From NCBI GenBank assembly GCA_030280995.1, contig JASXTE010000002.1, forward strand, positions 40,528,183 through 40,592,182: a DNA stretch of 64,000 nt, written 5' to 3'. The notes beneath the pieces are model-generated. The model saw only the letters and a program-made list of their open reading frames with translations. It had not been told where the DNA came from and did no database searches. The translations under genes were made by a program, and so were the position numbers. This DNA is from Hemileia vastatrix (lineage: Eukaryota; Basidiomycota; Pucciniomycetes; Pucciniales; Zaghouaniaceae). Of this stretch, positions 11,918 through 46,212 are shown in pieces; positions within the stretch are counted from its first letter, which is position 1; every line of letters starts with the position of its first letter.

Positions 11918-12669
11918 TGTCACCGGACGACCTACGCACAAGGTCGAGGATGTTCCTGAAAGTGAGATGAGGGATTTAGAAACTTCTTTGAAGCACAGAG
12001 GAATGATTCAAGGAAGTGATTTGAAGGTCACTCAAAGTAAGAGCTACGGGATTGAGGTATGTTCGAGAAGAATTATAATATAGTTTCAAAGGTATTAGGA
12101 ATTCTTAAGATCTCACGAAGAGCTGAAACTCAACAATCAAGGATTTAGGATTTTAGAAATGATTACTGAGAAAGTTTAAAGAAAAATACAATAACAATGA
12201 TTTAATTTTGTAATTTTACCACTATTAAATGTAAATACGTTTTATAATTTAATTCTAAGGAATGTCGAACCAAAAACCCAACCCTTTTATATCCTTTATT
12301 CCTCATTGCACCATTCCCATACCACAGACCATTAATAACATACACTTAGACCCTCTTCGCTAATATCCGTCCATGTTCAATTTACCCCTTTTAATTAATT
12401 AACAATCTTTTTCATGAAAACTACTAATGTACTATTACATTGATCATAGGGCTGTGCGTCGCTTATTGAAATTAAGACTAAGACACACTATTGAGAGATT
12501 GACTAATTTAGATTTAGATTTTAGGCTAGCGCAGTTGAATAGTAAGCACACAAAGGAGAATTGCAGTTGCTATGGAGAATTGCTTCCTGCGCTTTGAGTA
12601 TAGATTTACAACTCGATATTATTGATTTAATGAGCTTCTTTTGCCTTGAGTGTCACATGGCGCCTGACA
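11918..12669 (-). repeat. A2 left LTR (3' LTR of the element)
   Basis: 752 bases from TGTCACCGGACGACC to GCGCCTGACA. The outer end differs from the right LTR at several CpG positions, for example TTTGAAGC here against TTCGAAGC at about 19835. The right LTR carries about 20 extra bases. Confidence 0.95.
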
Positions 12670-12781
12670 GATGCCCGGGTATAAGAATCGCGAGCTCCGT
12701 TGAGCTTGAGCCATCTTCTCACACTAGTTTCCCTTTCCTCTATATATATCTTTTCTTGTTTATTACTTTCCTCATTATATA
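12670..12781 (+). promoter_or_regulatory. Promoter/5' UTR of A2 antisense gene
   Basis: A TATAAG box (12680-12685) follows the LTR end by ten bases. It is weaker than the TATAAAAA of A1 and A3. The leader is pyrimidine-rich up to the ATG at 12782. Confidence 0.55.
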
Positions 12782-13665
12782 ATGAACTGTCCTACCCCAA
12801 CGCCTACGCCTCCACACCCTAAAGCGGATGGGGGAATGGTTATGCGACAGTTTTCCCAGGCTTGCACAGCTTGTGAAGTGATGGAATACTTTTGTGTCGA
12901 AAGTACGGGGACTCGAGGCCCTCGCCAGAAATGCGAGTTTTGCGGTTGGCGACGAGTGGCGTGCGATGCGTTGACAAAGAACGCAGAGATTGGACGACGA
13001 TTCACCAAGACTAAGTTTTGGGTGATCCCTAAAACAAAAGAGGTGGTCAAAGACATTTGGAATGTCTCGGTTGGAGACGATCAATCGGTGGGGGAGAACG
13101 ATAAGAAGCTAGATAACGAGATCACAACCTGGGTAACACAGGCCACAGGTTCAAAACAGGGTGTCAAAGAAGAGATCGACAAATTGGTGGAGGAAGATGA
13201 GGATGAAGTCCCTGTTCCAAGGCAGACACCCAAAAAACGACGGGTGGTCATTGAAGATGATGAGGAGGAGAAAGAAGCAGAGGTAGAGGTGGCTCCAAGG
13301 TTGTTCTTAGAACCTGACCCCATCTTCGAAGTAAGTTTTATCTGTTCCTTTTTTAGGGATGAGGTTACTGATGAGTTCTTGTTTAGACATTGAATGCCAT
13401 TGTTGAAGGCTCAATTGGGGAACCTGCGTCGCTTTTACCAACTGAGGCAAACCCTCCGGTCACAGGTGGAATCAAAGAACCTGAGGAAACGCTGGACCAG
13501 GTGTGGTCGAAGAAGCCTCGTCAGGGTCGACGAGTTAGGTTCGCAGAAGAGTTGTGTGGGGAGGTTGATACAATTATTGACACTGCTTCCTTCGACGTAG
13601 CAGAGGAACTGTTGGAGATTGGAGAGGTGGTTCCGGTAGGAGAGGAGGAGGTATTTGAGAAATGA
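12782..13665 (+). CDS. Antisense Zn(II)2Cys6 nuclear protein of family A, copy A2 (C-terminally truncated)
   Basis: Exon 1 (12782-13330, 183 codons) and exon 2 (13387-13665) flank a 56-base GTAAGT...TTTAG intron at the family-conserved position, phase 0 after PDPIFE. Cysteines 28, 31, 38, 51, 54 and 61 form C-x2-C-x6-C-x12-C-x2-C-x6-C, a Zn2Cys6 DNA-binding cluster. TPKKRRVV (around 150) looks like a nuclear localisation signal and is followed by acidic stretches. Exon 2 carries a second basic patch KKPRQGRRVRF. It stops at TGA after VFEK, where A1 and A3 read TGT and continue about 33 residues, so this copy is shortened. It lies opposite to pol and is driven from the LTR side. The likely role is a DNA-binding regulator encoded by the element; the target is unknown. 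Confidence 0.85.
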
Positions 13666-14689
13666 AGGAAGGAGATAAGGGTAATTTTGGAGAAGATGAA
13701 AGGATTGGTTTGAGAAAAATTAAAAGAGAAAAATTTGAAATGAAAGGGAGAGATGTAAAGAAGTAGAAAAGTAGAATTTTCTTTAGTTTTTTTTTTTTGT
13801 ATTATTTTATTATATTTAAGGTGAATATTATTTTTTATAAGATTAGGGAGAGAGAGAAAAAAAGTTTTAAATAAAATTTTTCTTTAGAATTTGAAAGAAG
13901 AAATTAAATAAAGAAAGAAAAAGAAAGAAGTTATTAATTGAAGGAAGTTTAAGTTTAAAAGAAAAATTTATGTAAGAGAAGAGAGAAAGAAGAAAAAAAA
14001 TGGTTGGTGATTGAGATGAGTTTGTTGAAATGAGAATTTAATGAAAGAAGAATTTGATATTTGCGAAAAGTTGTTTATTGATGTTTTAGGAATTTTAGAT
14101 AGTTGAAAAGAGAGAAAAAACAGAATTAGAATTTAAAGAGAATTTGAAAAAGAAGAATCATTTGTTTGAAGAATTTTATAAAGAGATTTAGAGGTTGAAG
14201 TTAAGTTCGAGGAAATGATCGTGTTGTTATTCGTACAAGATTTTGATGGTTCGAAGGAAAGAAAGTTTAAAGAGAGAATAAATTTTAGAAAAGAAAATTT
14301 TAAAGAGAATTTTAAATTTAAGAAAAGAATGTATTTAGAGAATTGAAAAAGAGAAGAGAAAAAAAACATTTAGAGAGATTTAAAAGTTTTTTATTTTTAT
14401 TTTATTATTTATGTTTATTCTATTTATTTGTTTTTTTGTTTTTTTTTTTTAAATTTTATTTTATTTTTAATTTTTAATTTTAATTTTAGTTGGTTTTGGA
14501 GAAAATTTTATAGAAGTAGAAGAAAGAAAAAGAAAAAAAAAAGAAAACAAGGATAAGAAATTTAAGAGGTGTTTTAGATTTTAAGAAAAAGAGAAAAAAG
14601 AAAGAAAATAAAAAAAGAAAAGAAAATTTAAAATAAAAGAAATTTTAAGGTTTTGGTTTTAAAGGATATTTCAAATGAAAAGATTTTAG
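13666..14689. repeat. AT-rich tail of A2
   Basis: Purine-biased, AT-rich stretch between the convergent antisense gene and pol, with T/A runs around 14390-14500 that correspond to the AAAAT array of A1. The first about 100 bases are the abandoned end of the antisense reading frame. No other gene is supported. Confidence 0.75.
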
Positions 14690-15180
14690 AAGCTCAGGGG
14701 CGTTAGAAACATTGATGGCTGGTTCCCAGGATGTTTTGTCTGAGTCATTGAGGAAGCCTTCCCATTCCACAAGGTATTAAAGTTTCCCCTTGCGCATTCT
14801 TTAATCAAGGATACGACTTACTTCCCACTCTAGATGATCTTCTACTTCAACCGGTTCCGGAGGGGGTTGGTTCTTGCCCGGGTATATTTCTCGAGCCAGT
14901 TCCAGGAGAGATACATGGAAAACAGGGTGAATCGCCTGCCATTTAGGATGTAACTTGAGTTGAAATGCAGTTTTAGAGACTTCAGAGTAGATTTCGAATG
15001 GTCCCAAGCGCTTTTCAGCCAGTTTCTTGGATGTTCGTGTTGTTCAAATGTTTTGTGCGTTGAGCCATACTTTGTCGCCAGGTTTAAAGGAAGGAGTAGA
15101 TTGTCGATGTTTGTCGGCCTGTTTCTTGTATCTTCGAATCGCTGATTCCAAATTTTTTTTAAGTTCTTCTTGGAGTCGTG
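14690..15180 (-). pseudogene. Integrase C-terminus and chromodomain of A2 (stop in chromodomain)
   Basis: GPFEIYSEVSKTAFQL marks the GPY/F domain, followed by LLELAREIYPGKN and the chromodomain start VEDHLEWEVSRILD. A TAA interrupts it after RILD, and the rest of the chromodomain (QYLVEWEGF region) lies downstream in a disturbed frame. A stop also separates this part from the integrase core. The intact equivalent is in A3. Confidence 0.85.
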
Positions 15181-15373
15181 ATATAGTTCGAAGATAATGT
15201 TCCGCAGGATGATTAGTTCCTACATGGATTGAGTTGAATCAAGGATGTCGTCCATAAATCGTTTCGAAGGGAGATTGTTGTGTTGAAGAATAAGTCGAGT
15301 TATTATAAGCAAATTCGGCCAGTGGTAACCATGTTGTCCAATTGTCTTGTTGGTAACTGACATACATTCGAAG

Positions 15374-16155
15374 TTATTGTTTGAGGATTTGGTTAACTCT
15401 TTCTGTTTGACCGTCGGTTTCAGGGTGATAGGCCGTGGAGAGGTTCCTCGTGATACTGAGTTGTTGACACAGTTGGGTCCAGAATGTGGATACAAACAAT
15501 GAGCCTCTATCTGAAATAATATCATTTAGTAAGCCGTGTTTGGAAAATACATATTCTAGAAACAATTTTGACAAATCTTCTGCTGTAGCAGTAGTAGTGG
15601 TTTTAATGAAAATAGACATTTTTGAAAATCTATCTACTATTACTAATATAGCATCAAAATCATTAGAAAAAGGAAGTTGAGAAATGAAATCCATCGATAA
15701 AGATTCCCAAGGTTTAGAGTGAATAGGAAGTGGTTGAAGCAACCCATGCTTCCGGTGACGGCGAGCCTTATTCCTATTACATTTGTAACAAGCTTTTATA
15801 TAGGCCTTGATTTCTCTGGTCATACCTGGCCAGAAGAAATCCCTCGCTATTAACTGGTAGGTTTTATCAACCCCAAAATGACCAGCTAATGAGGAATCAT
15901 GTCGACTGTTGAAAATACATAATTTTATCTCATTGTTGTTGGGTATGACTACTCTACCTTTGAAGAGTAATAGACCTGATTCAATACTAAATCTTTTGCC
16001 CCTTGCTTTGAGAATATTTTCTCTTTTAACCCTAAACAATAATTGTCCTTCGACTGAGCTTCGAGAATGTTGGATAGTGGATTTTGAAAGGATTGAATTG
16101 TCATCGAATTAAGTTGATGAGTCGTTAACATTGATTCTTTGAAGATTGATTTCAC
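15374..16155 (-). pseudogene. Integrase core of A2
   Basis: Contains HFGVDKTYQLIARDFFWPGM and CYKCNRNK of the N-terminal HHCC zinc domain. The catalytic triad is visible as MDFISQL (Asp), IISDRGSLF (Asp) and PETDGQTERVNQ (Glu). It ends at a stop after QILKQ, where A3 continues EQYLRMYVS. The start overlaps a frame change after the RNase H piece. It would integrate the cDNA; the chromodomain lies in a separate fragment downstream. Confidence 0.88.
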
Positions 16156-16160
16156 ATTTG

Positions 16161-16508
16161 CTAGGTTCTTGTCAGAAAATTCGTCCCCCGCTGTGTGTAA
16201 ATGTCATCACGACGTGACAAGATATCTGGGACAATGCAGCTCTTACCTGGGCAATAGGAAATAGAAAAAGGAAATTCAGACAGAAATTCAGCCCACCTGG
16301 CTTGACGCCTGGTTAACACTTTGGAAGACATGAAGTATTTTAAAGCATTATGATCTGTTAAAATTTGAAAAGGACTATCTAGGCTGAGAAGAAAAGAACG
16401 CCATTTTTTAAGACAATGGATAATAGCTAAAAGCTCTTTGTCATGAATTTCATAATTTAATTCTGCGGCTATGAGTTTGTGTGACTCAAAAGCAACAGGA
16501 TGAAACAA
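16161..16508 (-). pseudogene. RNase H domain of A2
   Basis: HPVAFESHKLIAAELNYEIH and LTDHNALKYFMSSK are typical of Ty3/gypsy RNase H, with the conserved TDH motif and the ending PDILSRRDDI. The frame is offset from RT by a small indel near 16515 and breaks again before the integrase. Confidence 0.87.
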
Positions 16509-16522
16509 ATTTGTTTCAGGAT

Positions 16523-17419
16523 TTAATTGAGAGATGACCCCTGCAATAGCATAATCGCTGGCATCTGTCTCAACGATTGTCGAAGAATTGGGACTGTGGT
16601 GAACACCGTTTTTAGTGCTTCGAATTCCTTTCGTGCTGTAGAAGTAAAAACAAAAGGAATGTCTTTTCTAAGAAGATAAGTAAGATTGGAAATAGTTTTA
16701 GAGTAATCTTTAATAAATCTTCTATAGAAGTTTGCAAAACCCAAAATTCCTTTGAGTGATTTAATGGTTTTGGGCTCAGGCCATTCCAGGATTTTCTGGA
16801 CTTTTTTGTCATCCATGACTAAACCTTCAGTGGATAACGTAAAACCCAAAAAATCAATTGATTTAAGGTGGAATTTGCATTTATTATGCTTGGCGTAGAG
16901 ACCATGATCTCGAAGTCGATTTAGGACCTGTCGAGCATGATGAATATGTTCATCTAGTGTTTTCAAGAATATTAAAATATCATCTAAATAGAAGACTACA
17001 AATTGTTCAACAACATCTTGAAAGATGTCATTAACAAAAGTTTGAAAAGTTGAAGGTGCGTTACACAATCCAAAAGGCATAACTAAATATTCAAAACTAC
17101 CAAATCTAGTGCACATTGCAGTCAGTGGTTCATGACCTTCTGCAATGCAAATCAGATTGTAAGCGCCTCTAAGATCAATTTTAGAAAAGAAATTAGCACC
17201 ATTGAAAAGGGTAAGAAATAATGACATAGGAGGAACAGGATATGCATTCTTCTTAGTGACTGTGTTGAGCTTTCTATAGTCAACACACAACCTAAGACTA
17301 CCGTCCTTCTTTTTTACAAAGAGGACAAGGGAGCTGGTTGGAGATTTACTGGCTCTGATGAAACCTTTGGCTACATTCTCTGCAATGTAGTCTCGAAGAA
17401 CTTGAGATTTGTCCTTCAA
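16523..17419 (-). pseudogene. Reverse transcriptase of A2
   Basis: Conserved RT blocks appear in order: KKKDGSLRLCVDYRKLN, FSKIDLRGAYNLI, MPFGLCNAPSTFQ, then VVFYLDDILIF with the catalytic YLDD, and FLGFTLSTEG. The catalytic residues are intact. It is in the same frame as the protease but separated from it by a TGA at about 17483, where A3 has GGA, so a single-base change splits pol. Confidence 0.92.
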
Positions 17420-17482
17420 AAAAGAATAGACAGGACCTGCCGGAGGTACTGGGCCTATTAACTCTATTTGATGGTCATAGGG

Positions 17483-18253
17483 TCAATGAGGTGGTAACTT
17501 ATCGGCCTTGCGGATTGAGAAAACATCAAGGAAATCGTGGTAGATTTCTGGTAGAGTTGATTTAATGGCTTCAACGTTGATTTGGTCGTCCTCTTCATCT
17601 TCGAGAGAATCTGTCAAGGGGATACCTGAATTGAGAGAGCAGAATTTGATTACTTCAAGGCAATTTAAATCCTCTTTGAGTGAAGTCATTGAGCTAGAAG
17701 GGTTAGCCAATTGCTCATTTAGAAAAAGATCAGATGCTTTCAAGTCATCTGGCAGAGATTCGTCCTCTTGCAAGACATTGTCAGGCGGGTTGTTTAACTC
17801 CCTATTGACCTGCATTGAAGAATCAGAAATATACTTAGAGTGTGGGGTGATCAATCCCCTAGTCCAATCAATTTTGGGATTCCAATGCGTTAAAAAGTCA
17901 TGGCCAAGAATGGTATTGTCCATCCTTGGGGCGTCCAAGACTGATAATTCCCACTCGAAGGGGGGAAAGTTTGGAAAGTTGAAAACCCATAAAACTTTTT
18001 TACTTAACCAATATTTGGGTTCCTCTGATTCGACCAAATAGATTGGAGTTCGATCAACATCTGTAAATGTTAGTTGAAGCTTCTCGCCAAAAGATAAACT
18101 AACAAAAGAAATTGAAGCTCCAGAGTCTATAAGACAACTGAAGGGGATGTCCTCCTTAAAAATAATGAATCTCAAGCCATTTAAGGCAACTCCAGTCCTT
18201 AAGACATGGAGGTTCTGTGCACTGGGAGAGATAAGATAGTTTGCTTTGCACAC
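17483..18253 (-). CDS. Aspartic protease region of A2 pol
   Basis: The pepsin-like retroviral protease signature is LIDSGASISFVS (D-S-G-A), about 40 residues from the start of the open frame. ILGHDFLTHWNPKID follows, as in chromovirus proteases. The second half is an acidic linker to RT that runs to IRKADKLPPH, where the stop occurs. The protease cleaves gag and pol in the virus-like particle. A3 has lost this active site. Confidence 0.88.
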   Translation of the reverse strand: MCKANYLISPSAQNLHVLRTGVALNGLRFIIFKEDIPFSCLIDSGASISFVSLSFGEKLQLTFTDVDRTPIYLVESEEPKYWLSKKVLWVFNFPNFPPFEWELSVLDAPRMDNTILGHDFLTHWNPKIDWTRGLITPHSKYISDSSMQVNRELNNPPDNVLQEDESLPDDLKASDLFLNEQLANPSSSMTSLKEDLNCLEVIKFCSLNSGIPLTDSLEDEEDDQINVEAIKSTLPEIYHDFLDVFSIRKADKLPPH

Positions 18254-18276
18254 AAGTAAACTATCTAATAGTTTTT

Positions 18277-19693
18277 TTACTTCGAACTAGTACTTTCTCT
18301 TTCCTTCAACTTTACACAGTCTTCAAACTTGTGCTTACCCCCACAATACATACATAACCCATTATCTGCTCGTCTCTTCCTCTCAGCTTCTTTAAGTTCC
18401 CCTTTAGGATCCAGTACTTTGCTGATATCGCCTGGAGTCGAGCCTTTTGGTTGAGGTTTATCCTTCCCCTTATTGGCTTTGGATTGAGTCGAGGAGGATT
18501 GATTTGGTCGTGGGTGTGAAGAAGATCCCGATTTAAAATTTAGGCCTTGAGATTTGTTGGCGTATTGACGATGTTGAAGTTGTCCTTGATAAACGCCGTC
18601 AAGTTCGAGGGTTTGATCCATTAAATCCGTCAAAGTAGTCATCTTCTGACCGTGAAGATTAAATTGATCCAGAATCCTCAAAGGAAGTCCTTTCTTGAAA
18701 TGATACTTAAGGGCAGAATCATTCCAACCTACTCGAGTTTGAAGTGCTCTGAAGTTTGAGATATATTCAGAGGCTTTACCATTATCACTCATGCAAAGAA
18801 AATCAAGTTCAATTTCTGCGTTTTCAGTTTCATTAGAGTCCCCAAACAACGTAAAGAGTTGGTCTTTGAACTTTTCCCAATTATTGATAAGTAAGTGGGT
18901 TTCTGTCGAAGAAAGCATGAGCAGACACTACGCAATATAGGGGGTGGACTTGCTAGCAAGTCCTCAACCTGAACTCAGATGGAACTCAGACTGAACTCAT
19001 ACTGAACTCATGCTGAAGTCTACTTGGACACCCACCTAAAACTGTTCTGCTGAGTGGTGTTCATCCCTGATTGTATGGTTCCTTTATCAATAGCTCAATG
19101 TGTGCTCAATCTGTGGTGAGTTTGGGTCCAAGGTTGCGGACTCGCTAGAAAGTCCGCCCCCCATATTGCGTGGTGAGATAAGTTTTGAACCATCTTTCTG
19201 CTTTCCCGGCTAGGAATGAAGAAGTGTAAACAACCTTTGATCGGTCGCTATTAAAGTTTCGAGGGTCATTATGGAACAGTAGCTTGCAGGTTTGCAAGAA
19301 GGGTCGCAATCTGTCAGGGTGATCTCCGTCAAATTTGTCAGGAGTTTTGAACTTAGATCCCTCTGAAGATGTTGGATTTGAAAGGGTTTTCATGAAAAGT
19401 CTCATGAAATCTTCCAGAGAGTTAGATGGTCCAGGTTCTGAGGATTGACCAGAAGGGTGATTGGCAGGGGCGGATGGTGCCTCGTGCATTGTATCCTCTC
19501 CTTCTTCTTCATCACTAGAATCCTCAAAATCTTGTGGGATGTCTTCTACAGATTGAACTGAATGTTGCCTTTCCCTAAGGTCGAGTGGTTCCAAAGAGTG
19601 AGTGCGGGAAACAGACCTTGTGGCTGTTGGCCTGCCTCTAGCACGAGCTCTAGTAGTAGCGCCCGTAGGAGGAGTGCCTTGAACAGGTGCCAT
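18277..19693 (-). pseudogene. gag of A2, interrupted by a MITE
   Basis: The N-terminal part starts MAPVQGTPPTGATTRA at 19693 and reads to GKAERWFKTYL. The 250-base MITE then interrupts it, and the C-terminal part resumes at about 18918 (LLINNWEKFKDQLF). It ends with a zinc knuckle CMYCGGKHKFEDC (C-x2-C-x4-H-x4-C) near the C-terminus, which packages RNA. The frame closes shortly before the protease frame. Without the MITE the two parts would align with the A3 gag. The break must disable gag. Confidence 0.92.
18926..19175. mobile_element. MITE with CACTA-type ends, copy 1
   Basis: 250 bases. The ends are inverted repeats of about 44 bases, CACTACGCAATATAGGGGG at one end and its near-complement ending GCGTGGTG at the other. 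The 3-base target duplication AGA is at 18923-18925 and 19176-19178, and A3 shows the empty site. No coding capacity. Repeated CTGAACTCA motifs lie inside. The CACTA start with a 3-base duplication suggests the CACTA/EnSpm superfamily; no transposase for it is visible in the window. Confidence 0.9.
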
Positions 19694-19765
19694 TTAAAAA
19701 TTTTAAAAACACCTAAAAGGACGTAGTAGTGCAAAGAATGAGAACTACAGAGAATTAAATTATAC
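19694..19765 (-). other. A2 5' leader and primer-binding region
   Basis: The sequence after the 5' LTR reads GTATAATTTAATTCTCTGTA on the minus strand and is identical in A3. It lacks the TGG start expected for a tRNA 3' end, so priming may use an internal tRNA site or self-priming. This is unresolved. Confidence 0.4.
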
Positions 19766-20537
19766 TGTCACCGGACGACCTACGCACAAGGTCGAGGATG
19801 TTACTGAAAGTGAGATGAGGGATTTAGAAACTTCTTCGAAGCACAGAGGAATGATTCGAGGAAGTGATTCGAAGGTCACTCAAAGTAAGAGCTACGGGTT
19901 CGAGGTATGTTCAAGAAGAATTATGATATAGTTTCAAAGGTAATAGGAATTCTTAAGATCTCATGAAAGGTTGAAACTCAACAATCAAGGATTTAGGATT
20001 TTAGAAATGATTACTGAGAAAGTTTAAAGAAAAATACAATAACAATGATTTAATTTTGTAATTTTACCACTATTAAATGTAAATACGTTTTATAATTTAA
20101 TTCTAAGGAATGTCGAACCAAAAACCTAACCCTTTTATATCCTTTATTCCTCCTCGCATTGACCTCCCTCTCATCGCACCATTCCCATACCACAGACCAT
20201 TAATAACATACACTTAGACCCTCTTCGCTAATATCCATCCATGTTCAATTTACCCCTTTTAATTAATTAACAATCTTTTTAATGAAAACTACTAATGTAC
20301 TATTACATTGATCATAGCGCTGTGCGTCGCTTATTGAAATTAAGACTAAGACACACTATTGAGAGATTGACTAATTTAGATTTAGAGTTTAGGCTAGCGC
20401 AGTTGAATAGTAAGCACACAAAGGGGAATCGCAGTTGCTATGGAGAATTGCTTCCTGCGCTTTGAGTATAGATTTAGAACTCGATATTATTGATTTAATG
20501 AGCTGCTTTTGCCTCGAGTGTCATGTGGCGCGTGACA
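19766..20537 (-). repeat. A2 right LTR (5' LTR of the element)
   Basis: 772 bases from TGTCACCGGACGACC to GTGGCGCGTGACA, a near-identical partner of the LTR at 11918. It is followed by the target duplication AATCC. Confidence 0.95.
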
Positions 20538-22125: not shown

Positions 22126-22921
22126 ATGACTCAATATTTTACGGTTCCCAAAGATCAAGCGTGCTTGTTTTGTAAGCGCCGCAACTTTAATTGTACATTT
22201 TCTAAACCTCGGGGGTATGCCTCCTTTAGACCTGCCTGTGACAATTGCTTTAGATACCACAAAACTTGCAATATCTCTCTAAACCAGAATACTCCTCGGC
22301 CTACTGGTTATATTCGCTTTCCACCTAGCTCTACTAGTAGCGCTCCCATAGTTACCACCATTAGTCTCACTATTTCCACTAATAATAATGTTCCTTATGA
22401 ATCATCATCGCTTCCTAGTTTTCCCAAGCGGGAAATATCTATTCAGCCTAGCGCTACACCTTCTTCCACTCCAAGTTCTAATGCTTCTATGCGCTCAGGC
22501 TCCACTGCAGCTGCTCCTGACACAGTTACTATTACTTTGCCATCAGCATGCCCCCAAAACTTATTAGCAATTAAGTATCCTTCATTATACTTATTCTCCC
22601 CTTTCCAACTGACTCCTTGTCAGGCTTCAATGAATCCATCTCCCTGGGATTGGCCCCTATTCCTTTACCCTTTGTCCATTCCATGCGAATGTTTTCCAGA
22701 CTTCGTCTTATATATGACACTATGTCTCTATCCTATTCTAATGCACCAGCTTTTTCTGACGCTGAACTTCAAGCTCGCTATACCCATATAGAAATGATAG
22801 GTCAACTAATGAACGAAATCAGCTCATCAACTATTCTTGGATTCCCCGCCAATCCCGTCGCTTCGTCATGCCTGAAGACTGGAAAGGATATCCTATTAGC
22901 TTTCACCATGATACTGAATAG
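22126..22921 (+). CDS. Antisense gene 1 of family B (B2): Zn(II)2Cys6 protein
   Basis: Cysteines 13, 16, 23, 38, 41 and 48 give C-x2-C-x6-C-x14-C-x2-C-x6-C. The first half, CLFCKRRNFNC, matches the basic CxxCKRRxxxC pattern of fungal binuclear-cluster transcription factors. A Ser/Thr/Pro-rich linker of about 100 residues follows. Exon 1 ends at 22570. A 53-base intron leads to exon 2 (22624-22921), with conserved HSMRMFSRLRLIYD and HIEMIGQLMNEISS. Two defects are visible: the donor reads TTAAGT where B4 and B1 have GTAAGT, and a one-base deletion near 22853 shifts the frame before MPEDWKGYPISFH. All six cluster cysteines are intact only in this copy. The role is inferred: a DNA-binding regulator. 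Confidence 0.8.
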
Positions 22922-29864: not shown

Positions 29865-30671
29865 TGTCACTGGACAACCTACGCACAAGGTCAAGGATGT
29901 TCCTGTAAGTGAGATGAGGAGTTTAGAGACTTCTTCGAAGCACAGAGGAATGATTCAAGGAAGTGAATCAAAGATGACTCGAAGGAAGAACTACTGCTTC
30001 GAATTATGTTCGAGAAGAATTCTAATATAATTTAAAGGTAATATTAAAATTCTTAAGATCTCACGAAGGGTTGGAAACTCAATAATCAAAGGTTTTAGGA
30101 TTTAGGAATGATTACTGAGAAAATAAGGAAAGATACGATAATAATGATTTGACTTAAAATTTTTACCACTATTAACTATAAATACGTTTTATAATTTAAT
30201 TCTAAAGAATATCAAACCAAAAACCCAACCCCTTTTATATCCTTTACTCCTCCTCGCATTGACCTCATACCCATCCACTATTCCGCACATCACAGACCAT
30301 TAAAATACACCCCTTACACCTTGTCCCTACTCACTAACATCCGTTAACCCCTTAGTCCTCCACTAACTATTCCGTCCATTCTCACTACCCCTTTTAATAA
30401 TCCACAGACATTTCATAAAACCTTTATAATGTACTATTACATTGACTATTGCACTGTGCCTCGCTTATTGAGAAAAAGACTAAGACACACTATTGAGAGA
30501 TTGAATAATTTAGATTTAGAGTTTAGACTAGCGAGGTTGAAGAGCGAGTACACAAAGGAAAGTCACAGTTGCTATGGAGAATTGCTTTCTGCCCTTCAAA
30601 TATGGATTTAAAACCTCTTATTATTGATTTAATGAGCTTCTTTTGCCTCGAGTGTCACGTGGCACGTGACA
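29865..30671 (-). repeat. A3 left LTR (3' LTR of the element)
   Basis: TGTCACTGGACAACC to GGCACGTGACA, 807 bases. The outer end shows C-to-T changes at CpG relative to the right LTR (CACTGGACAACC against CACCGGACGACC). Confidence 0.95.
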
Positions 30672-30768
30672 GATGCCCAGGTATAAAAACGCAAGCTACA
30701 TTGAGCGTAAGACATACTTTCCACACTAGTTTTCCTTCCCTCTTTATTTAATTATTCTATAATTTACT
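30672..30768 (+). promoter_or_regulatory. Promoter/5' UTR of A3 antisense gene
   Basis: A TATAAAAA box (30682-30689) lies ten bases after the LTR and about 85 bases before the ATG. It is the clearest of the three family A promoters. Confidence 0.65.
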
Positions 30769-31768
30769 ATGACAGATTTCCCTACACCAGCTCCCACGCC
30801 TCCAAACCCTAAAGCGGATGGGGGAATCGTTACCTGGCAATATTCCAAGGCTTGCACGGCCTGCGAATCAATGGATTATTTTTGCGTTGAAAGCATGGCA
30901 ACACGAGGCCCTTTCCAGAAGTGCAAATTTTGCCGCTGGAGATGGGTGGTGTGCGATGCCTCTTCGAAGAATGCTGACATCAAGCATTGGTTCAAGAAGA
31001 CCAAATATTGGGTGATCCCTAAGACAAAAGAGGTAGTCAAGGATATTTGGGACGTTTCAATTGGGGACGATCAATTGGTGGGAGAGAATGAGGAGGAGGC
31101 TGATGATGATGTAGCAACCTGGGTGACTCGGGCCACGAGCAAGAAACAAGTGGTCGAAGAAGAAGTAGACAAGTTACTTGAAGAGGAGGAGGAAGTCTTC
31201 ATCTGGAGACGGACCCCGAAAAAGAGACGGGTGGTCATCAAGGATGAAGAAGAGGAGAAGGAAGTGGCAGTGGAGGTCATTCCAAGATTATTCTTAGAAG
31301 CAGACCCCATATTCGAAGTAAGTCCATTCTCCTGATATATTATTAATTTAGTTACTGATGATCTTGTTTTAGAATTCAGATGTCATTGCAGAAGTCCCTA
31401 CGGCAGAAGCTTCAAATATGGAAGCGACCATTGTGGAACCCACTGCTGTGGAAGTGGCATTGTCGATCCCTACCAAAGAAGAGTTACCGGTGGCTGCCTC
31501 GAGGGAGGAAAATAACAAAACCCTCGATCAGGTATGGTCGAAAAAGCCTCGCCAGGTTCGGAGAGTGAGGATTATTGAAGATTTAAGCAGCAAAATCGAT
31601 AAGATTGTCAATTCTGCCTCCTTTGACATGGCCGAGGAACTACTGGAAATTGGAGAAGTGGTTCCGGTAGGAGAGGTGGAAGTCTTTGAGAAATGTAGGA
31701 AGGAAATAAGGGAAATTTTAAAGAAGATGAAGGGATTGGTTCGGGAGAAAATAAAGGAGAGAATTTAA
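30769..31768 (+). CDS. Antisense Zn(II)2Cys6 nuclear protein of family A, copy A3 (intact, 314 aa)
   Basis: Exon 1 is 30769-31317 and exon 2 is 31373-31768, with a 55-base GTAAGT...TTTTAG intron at the same codon as in A1 and A2. The joined frame has 314 codons with no break. Cysteines 29, 32, 39, 52, 55 and 62 form C-x2-C-x6-C-x12-C-x2-C-x6-C, a fungal Zn2Cys6 DNA-binding cluster. TPKKRRVV (about 149-156) is a likely nuclear signal; Glu/Asp-rich runs on both sides could be activation or interaction surfaces. Exon 2 holds SKKPRQVRRVR and a Lys/Glu-rich helical C-terminus (RKEIREILKKMKGL). No fungal-specific transcription-factor middle domain is seen, and the chain is much shorter than typical host Zn2Cys6 factors. 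It is convergent with pol across an AT-rich tail. Confidence 0.88.
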
Positions 31769-32669
31769 AATGGAAGAGAAAAGAAAAAGAAAGAAAAGAA
31801 AAGTAGAAACAATTTGTATTTAGTTAATTTTATTTTGTTGTTTTATTTAAAAATTTTAATATTTTTTTTATAAGATTTTTGAGAGACAAAGAAAAAGATT
31901 AAATAAATTCTTGTTTTAAATTTTGAAAGAAGAAGTTTAAATGAAAGAAGAAAAGAAAGAATATTTGATTGAAGGAGTTTTAGTTTTAAATTTTGAAAAG
32001 AAAAAAAGAATTAAGCGAGAAGAAAGAAATAGTTGATTGAAATAATTTTGCTGAAAATAAAATTTAATGAAAAGAAAAAATTTGTTATTTATGAAAGTTT
32101 ATTAAAAGAAGAGAAGAAATAATTTTTAAAAGAATTTTGAAAGAAAAGAAGTAATTTGTTTGAAGAATTTTAAAAGAGAGATTTAGAGGTTGAAGTGAAG
32201 TTCGAGAAGATGGTCGTGTTGCATTTGTGAAACATTTTGATAGTTCGAGGAAAAGAAATTTTTGAAGATAGAATGTATATAGAAAATTGAAGAAGGAAAA
32301 AAGAAAAAGAAAAATTTTTTTATAGAAAAAGATTTTAATTTTATTTGTTTTTTTTTTAAATTTTAATTTAATTTAATTTAATTTTAATTTGGTTTTATTT
32401 TGTTTTATTTTACTTTATTTTATTTTATTTGATTTATTTTAATTTAATTTGAATTTTATTTATTTATTTTAATTTGAATTTTATTTTATTTAATTTTAAT
32501 TTTAATTTATTTATTTTAAAGAAGGTTAAAAATTTTGAAAAGAAAAAAGAATAAAGAAGAAAACAAAATTAAGGAATTTTTTCGAAGTAAAGATGTTTTA
32601 GATTTTAAAGAGAAGAAAAGAAAAGAGAAAAAAGAAAGAAAAAAGAGAAAGAAAAATAAAAGAGAGTTT
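31769..32669. repeat. AT-rich tail of A3
   Basis: Purine-biased AT-rich stretch with TTTTA-type pentamer runs at about 32340-32520, equivalent to the AAAAT array of A1. No coding sequence is supported. Confidence 0.75.
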
Positions 32670-33176
32670 TTAAGGTTTTGGTTTTAAAGGATATTTAAGA
32701 TGAAAAGATTTTAGGAGTTCAGGGGCATTAGAAACATTGATGGCTGGTTCCCAGGATGTTTTGTCTGAGTCATCAAGGAAGCCTTCCCATTCCACGAGGT
32801 ATTGAAGTTTTCCCTTGCGCACTCTTGAATCAAGGATATGGCTTACTTCCCACTCTAGATGGTCTTCTACTTCGACCGGTTCCGGAGGAGGTTGGTTCTT
32901 ACCTGGGTATGTTTCTCGAGCCAGTTCCAGGAGAGATACGTGAAAAACAGGGTGAATAGCCTGCCATTTAGGAGGTAGCTTGAGTTGAAATTCAGTTTTA
33001 GAGACTTCAGAGTCAATTTCGAATGGTCCCAAGCGTTTTTCAGCCAGTTTCTTTGATGGTCGAGTAGTTCGAATGTTTCGTGCATCTAGCCATACTTTGT
33101 CGCCTGGTTTAAAAGAAGGAGCATTTTGTCGATGTTTGTCGGCCTGTTCCTTGTACCTTAAAATTGCTAATTCCAA
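32670..33176 (-). CDS. Integrase C-terminus with GPY/F domain and chromodomain (A3)
   Basis: 168 open codons. KPGDKVWLDARNIRTT and LGPFEIDSEVS are the GPY/F region. The chromodomain reads VEDHLEWEVSHILDSR, then QYLVEWEGF and TSWEPA, with all three aromatic-cage-type positions kept, unlike A1. A stop just upstream (about 33180) detaches it from the core. It is the best-preserved chromodomain in the window. Confidence 0.92.
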   Translation of the reverse strand: MELAILRYKEQADKHRQNAPSFKPGDKVWLDARNIRTTRPSKKLAEKRLGPFEIDSEVSKTEFQLKLPPKWQAIHPVFHVSLLELARETYPGKNQPPPEPVEVEDHLEWEVSHILDSRVRKGKLQYLVEWEGFLDDSDKTSWEPAINVSNAPELLKSFHLKYPLKPKP

Positions 33177-33302
33177 ATTTTAATTAAGTTCCTCTTGGAG
33201 TTGTGATATGGTTCGAAGATAATTTTCCGCAGGATGACTAGTTCCTACATGGATTGAGTTGAATCAAGGATGTCTTCCATAAACAGTTTTGAATGGAGAT
33301 TG

Positions 33303-34247
33303 TTATGTCAAAGAATGAGTCGAGTTATTATAAGCAAATTCAGCCAATGGTAACAATGTGGTCCAATCATCTTGTTGGTAACTGACATACATTCGAAGGT
33401 ATTGTTCAAGGAATTGGTTAACCCTTTCCTTTTGCCCATCAGTTTCAGGATGATAGGCTGTGGAGAGGTTCCTCGTGATATTGAGTTGTCGACACAGTTG
33501 AGTCCAGAATGTAAATACAAACAATGAGCCTCTATCTGAAATAATATCATTAGGTAAGCCGTGTTTGGAAAATACATATTCTAGAAACAATTTTGAAAAA
33601 TCTTCTGCTGTAGCAGTAGTAGTGGTTTTAATAAAAATACACATCTTTGAAAATCTATCTACTATTACTAATATAGCATCAAAATTGTTAGAAAGAGGAA
33701 TTTGAGAAATAAAATCCATCAATAAAGATTCCCAAGGTTTAAAGGGAATAGGAAGTGATTGAAGCAACCCATACTTCCGGTGACAGGGAGCCTTATTCCT
33801 ATTACATTTGTAACAAGCTTTTATATAGGCCTTGATTTCCCTGGTCATACCTGGCCAGAAGAAATCCCTCGCTATTAACTGGTAGGTTTTATCAACCCCA
33901 AAATGACCAGCTAATGGAGAATCATGTCGACTGTTGAAAATCCATAATTTTATTTCATTGTTGTCTGGTATGACTACTCTACTTTTGAAAACTAATAGAC
34001 CTGATTTAATACTAAATCTTTTGGCCCCTTGCTTCGAGAGTATCTTGTCTTTCAACACTAAACAATAATTGTCCTTCGACTGAGCTTTGAGGATGTTGGA
34101 TAGTGGATTTTGAAAGGATTGAATTGTCATCAAATTAAGTTGATGAGTCGTTAACATTGATTCTTTGAAGATTGATTTCACATTCGCTGGGTTCTTGTCA
34201 GCAAATGCGTCCCCCCGCTGTGTGTAAATGTCATCCCGGCGTGACAA
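33303..34247 (-). CDS. Integrase core of A3
   Basis: 314 open codons containing HFGVDKTYQLIARDFFWPGM and CYKCNRNK (zinc domain), and the triad in MDFISQI, IISDRGSLF and PETDGQKERVNQ. It ends at a stop after NNSTHSLT, roughly 40 codons before the chromodomain fragment. The RNase H tail (SRRDDIYTQRG) is read at its N-terminus, showing it was continuous with RNase H. Catalytic residues look intact. Confidence 0.92.
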   Translation of the reverse strand: MSRRDDIYTQRGDAFADKNPANVKSIFKESMLTTHQLNLMTIQSFQNPLSNILKAQSKDNYCLVLKDKILSKQGAKRFSIKSGLLVFKSRVVIPDNNEIKLWIFNSRHDSPLAGHFGVDKTYQLIARDFFWPGMTREIKAYIKACYKCNRNKAPCHRKYGLLQSLPIPFKPWESLLMDFISQIPLSNNFDAILVIVDRFSKMCIFIKTTTTATAEDFSKLFLEYVFSKHGLPNDIISDRGSLFVFTFWTQLCRQLNITRNLSTAYHPETDGQKERVNQFLEQYLRMYVSYQQDDWTTLLPLAEFAYNNSTHSLT

Positions 34248-34560
34248 GATATCTGGGACAATGAAGTTCTTACCTAGGCAATAGGAAATAGAAAAAGGAA
34301 ATTCAGACAGAAATTCAGCCCACCTGGCTTAATGACTGGTTAACACTTTGGAAGACATAAAGTATTTCAAAGCATTATGGTCTGTTAACATTTGAAAAGG
34401 ACTATCTAAGCTGAGAAGAAAAGAGTGTCCTTTTTTAAGACAATGAATAATAGCTGAAAGCTCTTTGTCATGAATTTCATAATTTAATTCTGCTGCAATG
34501 AGTTTGCCTGACTCAAAAGCAACAGGATGAAACAATTTTGTTTCAGGATTTAATTGAGAA
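34248..34560 (-). pseudogene. RNase H of A3
   Basis: HPVAFESGKLIAAELNYEIH and LTDHNALKYFMSSKVLT. It stops after VLTSH, and the end of the domain reads into the integrase frame. One stop separates it from RT. Confidence 0.85.
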
Positions 34561-34628
34561 GTGACCCCTGAAATAGCATAATTGCTCGCATCTGTCTCGA
34601 CTATTGTCGAAGCAGAAGGATCAAAGTG

Positions 34629-35759
34629 TCAAAGAATTGGATCTGTGGTGAACGCCATCTTCAATTCTTCAAATTCCTTTTGTGCTGTGGAAGTAAAAAC
34701 AAAAGGAATATCTTTTCTAATAAGAGAAGTAAGATTGGAAATATTTTTAGAGTAATCTTTAATAAATCTTCTATAGAAATTTGCAAAACCCAAAAATTCC
34801 TGGAGGGATTTAATGGTTTTGGGCTCAGGCAATTCCAGGACCTTTTGGACCTTTTTTTCATCCATGACTAACCCATCAGCGAATAACGTAAAACCCAAAA
34901 AATCTATAGATTTAAGGTGGAATTTTCATTTATTATGCTTGGCGTAGAGACCGTGATCTCAAAGTCGATTTAGAACCTGTCGAACATGATGAATATGTTT
35001 ATCTAGTGTCTTTGAGAAAATTAAAATATCATCTAAATAGACGACAACAAATTGTTTGAAAACATCTTGAAAGATGTCATTGGCAAATGTTTGAAAAGTA
35101 GATGGTGCATTACACAATCCAAAAGGCATAACTAAATATTCAAAACTACCAAATCTAGTGCGCATTGCAGTCAGTGGTTCATGACCTTCCGCAATGCGAA
35201 TAAGATTGTAAGAGCCTCTAAGATCAATTTTAGAAAAGAAATTAGCACCATTGAAAAGGGTAAGAAGCAATGACATAGGAAGAACAGGATATGCATTATT
35301 CTTAGTGACTGTGTTGAGCTTTTTATAGTCAACACACAACCTAAGACTACCATCCTTCTTTTTTATAAAGAGAACAGGGTAGCTGGTTGGAGATTTACTG
35401 GCTGTGATGAAACTTTTGGCTACATTCTCTCCAATGTAGTCTTGAAGAACTTGAGATTTGTCCTTTGAAAAAGAATAGACAGGACCTGCGGGAGGTACTG
35501 GACCTATTAACTCTATCTGATAGTTGTAGGGTCCATGAGGTGGTAACTTTTCGGCCTTGCGGATTGAGAAAACATCGAGGAAATCATAATAGATTTGTGG
35601 TAGAGTTGATTTAATGGCTTCAACGTCAATTTGGTTGTCCTCATCATCTTCAAGAGAATCTGTCGAGGGAAGACCAGAATTGAGAGAGCATAATTTGATT
35701 ACTTTGAGGCATTTTAAATCCTCTTCAAGTGAAGTCAACGAGCTGGAAGGGTTAGCCAA
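34629..35759 (-). pseudogene. Reverse transcriptase of A3
   Basis: Open from 35759 to 34959 and again from 34898 to 34629. Blocks include FIKKKDGSLRLCVDYKKLN, FSKIDLRGSYNLI, MPFGLCNAPSTFQ and VVVYLDDILIFS with an intact YLDD. The protease-RT linker RKAEKLPPHGPYNYQIELIG is uninterrupted here, in contrast to A2. A stop after VLNRL splits the thumb part. Confidence 0.9.
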
Positions 35760-36224
35760 TTACTCATTTAAAGAAGGATCAGATGCTTGAAAGTCATCTG
35801 GCAGAGATTTGTCCTCTAGCAGGACATTTTCAGGTGGGTTGTTTAACTCCCTATTGACCTGCATTGAAGAATCAAAAATATACTTAGTACGTGGGGTGAT
35901 CAATCCCCGTGTCCAATAAATTTCAGGATTCCAATGCGTTAAAATGTCATGGCTAAGAATGGTATCGTCCATCCTTGGGGCATCCAAGACTGCTAATTCC
36001 CACTCGAAGGGGGGAAAGTTCGGAAAGTTTAAAACCCATAAAACTTTCTTACTTACCCAAAATTTGGGTTCCTCTGATTCAAAGAAGTAAATTGGAGTTC
36101 GATTGGAAAACTGAAGGGGACATCCTCCGTATGAAGAATGAATCTCAAGAAATTTAAGGCAACTCCAGTCCTTAAGACATGGAGGTTCTGTGCACTGGGA
36201 GAGATAAGATAGTATGCTTTGCAC
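35760..36224 (-). pseudogene. Protease region of A3 with active-site deletion
   Basis: The A2 sequence between the PFSCLIDSGAS and DRTPIY segments is largely absent here: the text passes from GGCPLQFS directly to NRTPIY, so the catalytic DSGA is lost in an apparent deletion of about 60-70 bases. The rest (ILSHDILTHWNPEIYWTRGL) is recognisable. This copy cannot process its own gag-pol. Confidence 0.82.
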
Positions 36225-36269
36225 ACAAGTAAACTATCTACTAGTTTTTTGACCTTGAACTAGAACCTT

Positions 36270-37425
36270 CTCTTTCCTTCAATTTTACACAATCTTCCAG
36301 CTTGTGCTTACCCCCACAATACATACATAACCCATTATCTGCTCGCCTCTTCCTCTCAGCTTCTTTAAGTTCCCCTTTAGGATCCAGTACTTTACTGATA
36401 TCTCCTGGGGTCGAGCTTTTCGGTCGAGTTTTGTCCTTTCCCTTATTGGGTTTGGATTGAGTCCAGAAGGATTAAATTGTCCGTGGGTGTGAAGAAGGTC
36501 CCAATTTAAAATTTAGGCCTTCAGATTTGTTGGCGTATCAACGATGTGGAATTCATCCTTGGTAAAAGCCGTTGAGTTCGAGGGTTTGATCCATTAAATC
36601 CATTAAAGTAGTCATCTTCTGACAGTGAAGATTTAACTGATCCAGAATCCTCGAAGGAAGTCCTTTTTGAAATGATACTTGAGGGCAGCATCATTCCAAC
36701 CTACTCCAGTTTGAAGTTCTCTGAATTTTGAGATATATTCAGAGGCTTTACCATTATCACTCATGCAAAGAAAATCAAGTTCAATTTCTGCGTTGTCAGT
36801 TTCATTAGGGTCACCAAAAAACATGAAGAGTTGGTCTTCAAACTTTTCCCAGTTATTAATAAGTAAGTGGGTTTTTGTCAAAGAGAGCATGAGAAGATAA
36901 GGTTTGAACCATCTTGATGCTTTTCTGGCTAGGAATGAAGAAGCATAAACAACCTTTGATTAATTGTCATTGAAGATTCGAGGGTCATTATGGAACAGGA
37001 GCTTGCAGGTTTGCAAGAAGGGCCGCAATCTGTCTGGATGTTCTCCATCAAATTTATCAGGAGATTTCATAGAAGGAGTTTTGAATTTAGATCCCTCTGA
37101 AGACCTTGAATTTGAAAGGGTCTTCATGAAAAGTCTCATGAAATCTTCCAGAGAATTAGATGGTCCAGGTTCTGAAGGTTGACCAGAAGGGTGATTAGCA
37201 GGGGCGGATGGTGCCTCATGCATTGTATCCTCTCCTTCTTCATCATCACTAGAATCATCAAAATCTTTTGAAATGTCTTCTACAGATTGGACTGAATGTT
37301 TCCGCTCCCTAAGGTCAAGGGCTCCAAGGTGTGGGTGCGAGAAACAGGCCGTGTGGCTGTTGGCCTGCCTCTGGTTCCAGCTCTAGTAGTAGCGCCCGTA
37401 GGAGGAGTGCGTTGAACAGGTGCCA
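36270..37425 (-). pseudogene. gag of A3
   Basis: Starts MAPVQRTPPTGATTRAG at 37425. It shifts frame near SLEPL, is open again 37223-36960 (MHEAPSAPANHPSGQPSEPG) and 36890-36633, and ends with the zinc knuckle CMYCGGKHKLEDC in a broken frame near 36320. It shows the empty site of the MITE found in A2. Confidence 0.87.
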
Positions 37426-37497
37426 TTTAAAATTTTAGAAACACCTAAAAGGACGTAGTAGTGCAAAGAATGAGAACTACAGAGAATTAAATTATAC

Positions 37498-38304
37498 TGT
37501 CACCGGACGACCTACGCACAAGGTCGAGGATGTTCCTGTAGGTGAGATGAGGAGTTTAGAGACTTCTTCGAAGCACAGAGGAATGATTCAAGGAAGTGAT
37601 TCAAAGATGACTGGAAGGAAGAACTACTGCTTAGAATTATGTTCGAGAAGAATTCTAATAAAATTTAAAGGTAATATTAAAATTCTTAAGATCTCATGAA
37701 GGGTTGAAAACTCAATAATCAAAGGTTTTAGGATTTAGGAATGATTACTGAGAAAATAAGGAAAGATACAATAATAATGATTTGACTTAAAATTTTTACC
37801 ACTATTAGCTATAAATACGTTTTATAATTTAATTCTAAAGAATATCGAACCAAAAACCCAACCCCTTTTATATTCTTTACTCCTCCTCGCATTGACCTCA
37901 TACCCATCTACTATTCCGCACATCACAGACCATTAAAATACACCCGTTACACCTGGACCCTCCTCACTAAAATCCGTTAACCCCTTAGTCCTCCACTAAC
38001 CATTCCGTCCATGCTCACTACCCCTTTTAATAATCCACAGACATTTCATAAAACCTTTTTAATGTACTATTACATTGACTATTGCGCTGTGCCTCGCTTA
38101 TTGAGAAAAAGACTAAGACACACTATTGAGAGATTGAATAATTTAGATTTAGAGTTTAGACTAGCGCGGTTGAAGAGTGAGTACACAAAGGAAAGTGGCA
38201 GTTGCCATGGAGAATTGCTTTCTGCGCTTCAAGTATGGATTTAAAACCTCTTATTATTGATTTAATGAGCTGCTTTTGCCTCAAGTGTCACGTGGCGCGT
38301 GACA
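37498..38304 (-). repeat. A3 right LTR (5' LTR of the element)
   Basis: TGTCACCGGACGACC to GTGGCGCGTGACA, 807 bases, followed by GATGG. Confidence 0.95.
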
Positions 38305-38309
38305 GATGG

Positions 38310-45331: not shown

Positions 45332-46212
45332 TCATAGTTTAAAGAGGGAACAATATACAAGTGCTAAAGTAATGGCGGTAATAAGAAAGGAAAGTGAAGA
45401 AGAGAATCTAAGACTAATTGGAGTCTGCTCTGAAACTACTGGGGAATCCTTTTCACTCTTCTGGCATAATAAAATTGTTGGTATCCGCTGAAAAACAGGA
45501 ATAGAAGTGGAACTAATTTCATTCATCAACTGAATGATCATTTCTATATGATTATAAAAGATGTTCAATTTTTTATCTGAGAAAGCAGGAGCAGGATTAA
45601 AGGAGAATGACATAGCATTGTAAATGAGAAAAAGGTGTGAGAAGATTTGCATGGAATGGACAAAGGGAAGGGGTTAAAGAACCCATCCTAAAAAATGGAT
45701 TCCTTAAAAGATTAGGATAGAGTAATATCAGGTATAGTTAATTAAGAAAAATATTATAATGAACTTACTTGCTAGTTAATTTGAATGCCATGTGGAAGGA
45801 GAAGGCACTCTTACAGTATTGGGCAAAAATGTAGAGGAAGATTGCATGGCAAATCTTGTTTGGAGGATGAAGATGATTCAGCCTTGAGTTGAATGGAAAT
45901 TTCTCATTGAGATTATGCAGGAAGAGACATGCTATTGATGGGTAAAGTTTCATTAGAATGTAAAGTAGTGCTAGTAAGTCAAGCTAGTACAGTAGGAGTG
46001 CTGGATGTATTTCCAGGAGGAAACTGACCAAATTCATTAGGCAATGAAGGATAAGTGTAGGAAAAGATACAAGTTTTATGGAATCTGAAGCATCTATCAC
46101 AGGCAAGTCTGAAGTTGGAATAACCAAAAGGCTTAGAGAAATTACTGTTAAAATTACGGTGGCATAAAAATCTGAAAGCTTTATCTCTAGGTAAGGTACA
46201 ATATTGGGTCAT
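45332..46212 (-). pseudogene. Antisense gene 1 (Zn2Cys6) of family B, copy B3, degraded
   Basis: Starts MTQYCTLPRDKA. The first half of the cluster is lost (FRFLCHRNFNS keeps one cysteine), while RLACDRCFRFHKTC keeps C-x2-C-x6-C. The exon 2 remnant contains MQIFSHLFLIYNAMS and HIEMIIQLMNEISS, as in B1, B2 and B4. A stop occurs between the parts. The conserved second exon confirms the gene model. Confidence 0.72.

Follow-up and report, generated by a model that had tools for sequence, protein, structure and literature searches.

A two-exon antisense gene with a six-cysteine cluster, under purifying selection in Ty3/gypsy elements of Hemileia vastatrix, as a candidate element-borne regulator

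Results

The antisense gene of family A and its element

We analyzed a 64,000-nucleotide stretch of the genome of the rust fungus Hemileia vastatrix (GenBank assembly GCA_030280995.1, contig JASXTE010000002.1, positions 40,528,183 to 40,592,182), hereafter the window, whose own numbering is used throughout; it sits on a 56.2-Mb contig (C338) of the 747.6-Mb assembly of 791 contigs. Three copies in the window of a long terminal repeat (LTR) retrotransposon that we call family A (A1, A2 and A3) carry, on the strand opposite to pol and next to the 3' LTR, a two-exon gene whose predicted product begins with a cluster of six cysteines. The gene has a conserved structure, evolves under purifying selection and recurs at at least 150 scored places in the genome. 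Its parts in the window are as follows.

30769..31317, plus strand: A3 antisense gene exon 1, 183 codons (joined-frame translation; conserved in 25 copies)
31318..31372, plus strand: A3 antisense intron, 55 bp, phase 0, GTAAGT...TACTGATG...TTTTAG (frame joining, copy alignment)
31373..31768, plus strand: A3 antisense gene exon 2, 131 codons and stop, coding to 31765 (joined-frame translation)
30682..30689, plus strand: TATA-like box of the A3 antisense gene, just beyond the LTR end (sequence, 25-copy alignment)
12782..13330, plus strand: A2 antisense exon 1, open (copy comparison)
13387..13737, plus strand: A2 antisense exon 2, two in-frame stops near the C-end (copy comparison)
1897..2445, minus strand: A1 antisense exon 1, open (copy comparison)
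1493..1831, minus strand: A1 antisense exon 2, open given the second AG (ending at 1832) as acceptor

The joined A3 frame is open for 314 codons, and its product has the cysteine cluster at residues 29-62, an acidic middle and the basic stretch PKKRR at residues 150-154. The spacing CX2CX6CX12CX2CX6C is exact in A1, A2, A3 and a further copy, A4. A preliminary description of the window had proposed this A3 frame, the spacing and PKKRR, and we found the gene to be as stated there; it had also placed the gene in all three copies, which holds for its presence in A1, A2 and A3 but not for its integrity in A2, where exon 2 is broken by stops. If the first AG is taken as acceptor in A1, a stop falls two codons into exon 2; with the AG 6 bp downstream the frame is open throughout (296 codons).

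Among aligned A introns, a GTAAG donor and an ACTGAT branch-like box are each present in 21 of 22; the alignment covers 22 of the 25 copies defined below (A1 and A2 were excluded by design and L038 for its different acceptor end), and the TTTAG intron end was among the criteria by which the introns were cut. The TATA-like box of A3 lies about 85 bp upstream of the ATG, and 23 of 25 copies have a TATA string within the 120 bases that end at the ATG. At the outer LTR end (30653-30671 in the 3' LTR, and also 38286-38304) there is a near-palindrome, which reads TGTCACGTGGCACGTGACA in the 3' LTR, about 10 bp from the antisense TATA box; it may be a regulatory site.

Element A is a Ty3/gypsy chromovirus, as the preliminary description had it: the LTRs are flanked by a target duplication, reverse transcriptase (RT) precedes integrase in pol, and a chromodomain (Chromo, 47.4 bits against a cut-off of 25.1) stands at the integrase end. 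In A3 the antisense gene is placed between the end of pol (32670) and the 3' LTR (30671).

29865..38304, minus strand: element A3, LTR-to-LTR Ty3/gypsy chromovirus copy (self-BLAST, terminal sequences, domains)
29860-29864 and 38305-38309: target duplication GATGG flanking A3 (terminal sequences)
29865..30671, minus strand: A3 3' LTR, 807 bp (self-BLAST, terminal sequences)
37498..38304, minus strand: A3 5' LTR, 807 bp, 95.8% identity to the 3' LTR (self-BLAST, terminal sequences)
34959-35759, minus strand: A3 RT, RVT_1, 89.7 bits (Pfam domain search)
33306..34247, minus strand: A3 integrase, with Integrase_H2C2 and rve at 33303-34247 (Pfam domain search)
32670..33176, minus strand: A3 pol C-terminal end, SH3_Tf2-1 and Chromo (Pfam domain search)
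11918..20537, minus strand: element A2, target duplication AATCC (self-BLAST, terminal sequences)

In a 284-kb genome sample, all six elements with an integrase 69% or more similar to the A3 integrase have the antisense gene. Searched against 5.8 billion proteins, the A3 integrase gave 3,049 matches at E ≤ 1e-10 from 3,534 candidates; among the 120 relatives listed, the named organisms were mostly Austropuccinia psidii, with Puccinia sorghi and Tilletia walkeri once each, in keeping with a rust host. The stretch beyond the A3 5' LTR (37440-37497) contains no recognizable usual tRNA primer site.

The antisense frame is not due to chance

The pattern C-x2-C-x6-C-x(6-18)-C-x2-C-x6-C occurs five times in the six frames of 284 kb of genome, namely in the antisense genes of A1, A2, A3, A4 and B1 (a copy of a second family, described below), and not once in any of 10 first-order Markov controls. 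Pairwise comparison of A1, A2 and A3 gave 0-2 stops in the antisense frame, 3-5 in the opposite-strand frame that shares its third positions and 10-28 in the other four. The proportions of nonsynonymous and synonymous differences tell the same frame apart: their ratio (pN/pS) is 0.20-0.26 in the antisense frame, with a weaker echo (0.29-0.36) in its mirror frame and 0.98-2.46 in the remaining four, and placing the same changes at random yields mean ratios of 0.69-0.78, the lowest of 500 placements being 0.41, 0.56 and 0.56. By codon position, the pairs differ at 40/20/93, 69/40/165 and 66/43/146 sites. The six-frame comparison, random placement and Markov controls rule out a chance open frame. 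A dead relic is likewise ruled out for the lineage and retained for single copies, such as A2 with its broken exon 2 and the 15 of 25 copies with a stop in exon 1.

Purifying selection across genomic copies

A genome search with A exon 1 returned 6,761 first-look candidates; all 150 that were scored matched over nearly the full exon, and these are spread over 20 contigs; the 18 considered for length span 26-71 Mb. By hand count, about 67 of the 150 listed exon-1 frames are free of stops. Every third row of the first 60 in this 150-row listing supplied 20 copies, which together with A1, A2, A3, A4 and A6 form the 25-copy A set; A4 (C338:10.02 Mb) and A6 (C34:5.10 Mb) had been met in blind sampling, without a protein search, and the divergent, broken A5 (C338:10.07 Mb) was excluded from the antisense codon counts. 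Ratios of nonsynonymous to synonymous divergence (dN/dS) were calculated by NG86, which overstates dS when transitions dominate, and four-fold sites were therefore added.

Median dN/dS of exon 1 falls steadily with distance, from 0.557 at dS < 0.15 through 0.307 (dS 0.15-0.30), 0.208, 0.140 (dS 0.5-0.8) and 0.103 to 0.092 at dS > 1.2 (269 of 300 pairs with a defined value, 265 of them binned), as would be expected if live lineages are constrained while dead copies drift; that of exon 2 declines from 0.70 to 0.13 (264 pairs defined). The six cysteines are kept in 92-100% of the 25 copies, compared with a mean majority frequency of 0.86; five are invariant wherever a copy has a letter and the second is kept in 92%. 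The A antisense gene is a real gene under purifying selection. A genome-wide collection of copies with dN/dS on this frame had been proposed earlier as a check, with values near 1 as the outcome that would speak against the gene, and the values obtained are clearly far lower.

Among the five unsearched copies (A1, A2, A3, A4 and A6), dN/dS is 0.07-0.16 in eight of 10 pairs, the other two being saturated and undefined. Second-position divergence relative to four-fold divergence is 0.14-0.28 for the antisense gene versus 0.31-0.67 for pol, each of the 10 pairs giving the lower value for the antisense gene; pol dN/dS for the same copy pairs is 0.30-0.56. Pol pairs are younger at silent sites, which gives drift after insertion more weight and probably raises the pol ratio. 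An older pol comparison, with the much decayed A5 (dS 0.62-0.69), gave 0.28-0.30 versus 0.14 for antisense exon 1 at dS 0.5-0.8. Since the two show a similar ratio at like dS, the claim that the antisense gene is more constrained than pol was withdrawn; as judged from these substitution counts, it is at least as constrained. Dropping the stronger claim leaves the mechanism proposed below unaffected, since that proposal was not built on it.

Probable module exchange between antisense-gene types and pol

Compared over the 3' half in 150-base intervals, A copies differ mostly by 3-15% in pol, by 8-20% in the LTR and by 14-42% in the spacer and antisense gene, and in the initial copies four-fold divergence (K4) of the antisense gene is 4-9-fold above that of pol. 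We compared integrase and antisense gene in 10 copies, including six more (L071-L076) and dropping L041, which has only 41 integrase codons; with only about 68-108 four-fold sites per pair, single K4 values are rough. In the three of 45 pairs that share an antisense type, median K4 is 0.077 for integrase and 0.095 for the antisense gene (ratio 1.3, range 1.2-1.6), whereas in the other 42 an integrase K4 of 0.04-0.20 stands against an antisense K4 of 0.26-1.74 (ratio 2.8-25). The closest integrases of all, those of A1 and L031 (K4 0.043), accompany antisense genes at K4 1.07, and the nearest neighbor by integrase is also nearest by antisense gene in only three of 10 copies.

Faster mutation of the 3' end is disfavored by this contrast between same-type and other pairs and by the mostly discordant neighbors, which make module exchange the better reading; counting against exchange, the integrase and antisense distance matrices are weakly correlated (r 0.32, reached by 390 of 5000 permutations, 10 copies). 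Old antisense-gene types thus seem, from these distances, to have recombined with a recently spread pol. The LTR tip has a mean p of 0.14 in 83 pairs with antisense K4 > 0.6 versus 0.08 in 25 pairs with K4 < 0.15, and its distance follows that of the antisense gene (Mantel r 0.32, 0 of 2000; 23 copies, with L044 and L048 left out). It differs little between antisense types, which speaks neither for nor against type-matched binding sites.

A second family carries a gene of the same plan

A different gypsy family in the same window, B, has its own two-exon antisense gene adjoining the 3' LTR, again with a six-cysteine cluster, so that what had been presented as a trait of family A is found there but is not confined to it.

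22126..22570, plus strand: B1 antisense exon 1, CX2CX6CX14CX2CX6C (domain search, copy alignment)
22624..22920, plus strand: B1 antisense exon 2, frame breaks part-way, end approximate
53128..53925, minus strand: B2 antisense gene in two exons, with approximate boundaries, interrupted by one stop at the second cysteine
7756..8544, minus strand: B3, antisense gene of divergent B type, exon 1 47% and exon 2 58% identical
45500..46212, minus strand: B4, divergent decayed B-type antisense gene, boundaries approximate

Pol pieces of B run from 23914 to 28383 (minus strand) and from 47402 to 52545 (plus strand), and the three B pieces searched gave no match to Chromo. The single B antisense intron is about 53 bp long in B1 and B2 and in phase 1. 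A genome search for the B gene returned 6,859 candidates, and 150 of 150 scored matched. The 25-copy B set consists of 20 copies hand-picked down the genome listing and the earlier ones, which include B5, an additional B-type gene from the genome sample. Each cysteine is kept in 20-24 of these 25 copies, and median dN/dS, about 0.9-1.0 for the least diverged pairs, declines to 0.31 in exon 1 and 0.14 in exon 2 for the most diverged. Ratios within B1, B2 and B5 are 0.30-0.58; B1 and B2 against B3 give 0.13 and 0.08 in exon 2 and 0.26 and 0.32 in exon 1, while B5 against B3 is saturated. Past the cysteines, the A and B proteins have no convincing likeness (hhalign probability 2.8%). A gene of the same plan would have evolved or been acquired in family B.

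The B pol region contains a 33-bp tandem repeat in both copies (25088-25247 and 50906-51024). Elsewhere in the window, positions 55602-56054 hold a fragment of a DDE_Tnp_4 transposase (44.2 bits).

The cluster resembles Zn2Cys6 domains

The Zn2Cys6 spacing range, which we take to be CX2CX6CX5-12CX2CX6-8C, accommodates A; B, with its 14-residue loop, falls just outside. At E ≤ 1, Pfam yielded no match for the whole A3 antisense protein. Of the N-terminal pieces from eight A copies, five score 10.0-12.0 bits against Zn_clus and those of A3, A2 and L043 give no match; for B the whole B1 frame scores 14.1 bits and six N-terminal pieces 16.4-20.8. Basic residues between Cys2 and Cys3, typical of Zn2Cys6 and present in the Zn_clus domains of the assembly, are mostly absent from A (ESMDYF, EVMEYF, ESVEYF; one K in A4 and A6), where they are located in the second half-cluster instead; the KRRNFN of B1 would qualify.

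Aligned by hhalign with eight Zn_clus domains of the assembly, A scores 22.3, compared with a mean of 13.9 and a maximum of 18.7 for 20 cysteine-keeping shuffles, over only 17 columns in which its second half lies on the first half of Zn_clus; B scores 12.1, and its cysteine-keeping shuffles reach 25.0. Several Pfam matches of A and B also align one cluster half to the other half of the profile. Scoring each half separately did not confirm the permuted half-clusters hinted at by these alignments: A's second half scores 6.6 against the first half-profile and 6.3 against the second, and both B halves prefer the second (9.3 and 7.8), where leave-one-out scoring of true Zn_clus domains gives 20.8 and 14.0 on the matching half.

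By these profile comparisons, the antisense protein is Zn2Cys6-like without demonstrated family membership. Its earlier identification as a Zn(II)2Cys6 protein is therefore not supported in that form: the spacing is exact and near-invariant, but the Zn_clus cut-off is not reached and the basic residues are mostly absent, and the search of PF00172 that had been suggested left A3 without a match, an outcome named beforehand as unfavorable. Ordinary Zn_clus genes, mostly with long open frames, occur on small contigs (C472, C511, C313, C446, C632, C698 and C520) with a GC content of 0.36-0.53, which have the appearance of contaminating fungi rather than of the main genome.

Discussion

A possible regulator in trans

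The explanation we favor, with about even confidence, is that the A antisense gene encodes an element-borne nuclear regulator that would bind zinc and DNA and act in trans, likely on the LTR and promoter region of its own family. Antisense transcription would start at the conserved TATA box adjoining the LTR, and the 55-bp intron would be spliced from that transcript; from the known replication cycle, the intron would persist through retrotransposition because it is antisense to the RNA that is reverse-transcribed and hence unspliced there. The product, of about 300 residues, would combine an N-terminal six-cysteine, probably zinc-binding cluster with an acidic middle that includes a basic stretch like a nuclear signal, and with a helical C-terminus; exon 2 is predicted to be partly helical (mean pLDDT 59.5; C-terminal helices about 62-85, of moderate confidence). 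Such a protein would enter the nucleus and bind DNA by way of its cysteine cluster, with the family's LTR and promoter region as the probable site, and thereby tune or rescue expression of the element.

Several results weigh against this proposal. The Zn_clus cut-off of 21 bits is reached by none of eight A and none of six B copies, and the N-terminal 84 residues of A3 have no Zn_clus match even at E ≤ 10. The joined A3 protein matches nothing at E ≤ 10 among 5.8 billion proteins (4,349 word candidates), a database in which the pol search shows rust proteins to be present and from which fast-evolving or unannotated relatives could escape; a PDB search returned nothing below E 0.5, and the AlphaFold2 model of exon 1 is unusable (pLDDT 31). 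In the selection analysis, the 20 searched copies were chosen by protein similarity, which lowers dN/dS, and the contrast with pol is not clean, the antisense exon 1 having a median of 0.31 at dS 0.15-0.30 where pol has 0.30-0.47. The B1 frame is likewise without a match at E ≤ 10 in the same proteins (204 candidates), and viral contigs yielded no relative. With no relative in PDB or the protein database, no function can be transferred.

Other roles for the gene

The best of the alternatives, though an unlikely one, is an anti-silencing factor: instead of regulating a specific promoter, it would target host chromatin or the small-RNA silencing of the element family. Plant DNA transposons are known to encode anti-silencing proteins, and both the very high copy number in this genome and the strong constraint on the antisense gene would suit such a role, but the protein has no domain link to silencing factors. 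Somewhat less probable again is an accessory replication or import factor, whose cysteine cluster would bind nucleic acid, either inside the particle or within the pre-integration complex. The cluster, basic stretch and helices would fit, and for plant antisense open reading frames (ORFs) the accessible part of PMC7264820 discusses involvement around the pre-integration complex; a separate antisense promoter and a spliced mRNA would be an odd route to a particle protein, however, and the acidic middle also speaks against it.

That the antisense RNA itself matters, by forming double-stranded RNA with the element RNA, and that the protein is incidental, is very improbable: by position the mRNA would be able to pair with the 3' end of the element RNA, but the codon-position bias among A1, A2 and A3 and a dN/dS of about 0.1 in distant pairs show that the protein sequence is under selection. 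Least credible of all is a captured host transcription-factor gene useless to the element, which the host-like cysteine spacing and the intron would suit but which is contradicted by constraint over near-saturated synonymous distances, by presence in six of six A-type elements of the sample and by the existence of two families with such a gene.

Returning to the regulator in trans, a bolder version of it, which we consider improbable, would make the antisense proteins type-specific self-regulators: many ancient types on one recently shared gag-pol backbone, each recognizing its own kind. If true, type-specific self-regulation would sort rust retrotransposons into immunity-like groups.

Comparison with known antisense systems

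In the literature searched, antisense genes of LTR elements have so far been a matter of plants and retroviruses; here they occur in two families of one rust fungus, where they contain an intron, follow a new protein plan and are under purifying selection, across thousands of candidate copies. Searches of the open-access literature aimed at a fungal or rust antisense accessory gene found no recognized case, and the words antisense and zinc have no occurrences in the available part of a rust transposon paper (PMC12210899). These families make the role of antisense accessory genes testable with comparative data, since copy number, selection and module exchange can be set against expression, and may bear on the richness of rust genomes in gypsy elements. 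They also warn annotators that cysteine-cluster genes of this kind are element-borne.

Gal4-type Zn2Cys6 factors have six cysteines, as do A (x2, x6, x12, x2, x6) and B (x2, x6, x14, x2, x6); in contrast to them, 14 of 14 tested copies lie under the Pfam cut-off, the stretch from Cys2 to Cys3 is mostly without basic residues in A, and B has a 14-residue loop. HBZ of the retrovirus HTLV is a bZIP protein made from a spliced message. It belongs to an animal retrovirus and no homology to A is claimed; HBZ and the products of other retroviral antisense genes are nuclear and act in the virus life cycle, according to the portion of PMC11963269 available.

The antisense ORFs of plant Retand elements (TRP28, PF04195) belong to a non-chromovirus lineage restricted to flowering plants and encode a different domain, unlike the A3 protein with its lack of a Pfam match. 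The antisense accessory gene of maize Grande, which we take to be gene 23, has to our knowledge no cysteine cluster or intron, and is likened to A by description. Like A, Grande has its antisense ORF between pol and the 3' LTR, and in Retand such ORFs with TRP28 are found in 97% of clusters (both from the accessible part of PMC11963269). The Grande accessory gene has its own promoter and a nuclear product, going by the reference list of a paper on additional ORFs in plants (PMC7264820, in part). In A, the conserved TATA-like box and the basic stretch may correspond to these two traits. Antisense accessory genes are thus known from plants and retroviruses, and what is new here is their occurrence in a fungus, with an intron and with this protein plan; as the best reading, we infer for family A a regulator comparable to the antisense genes of Grande and Retand.
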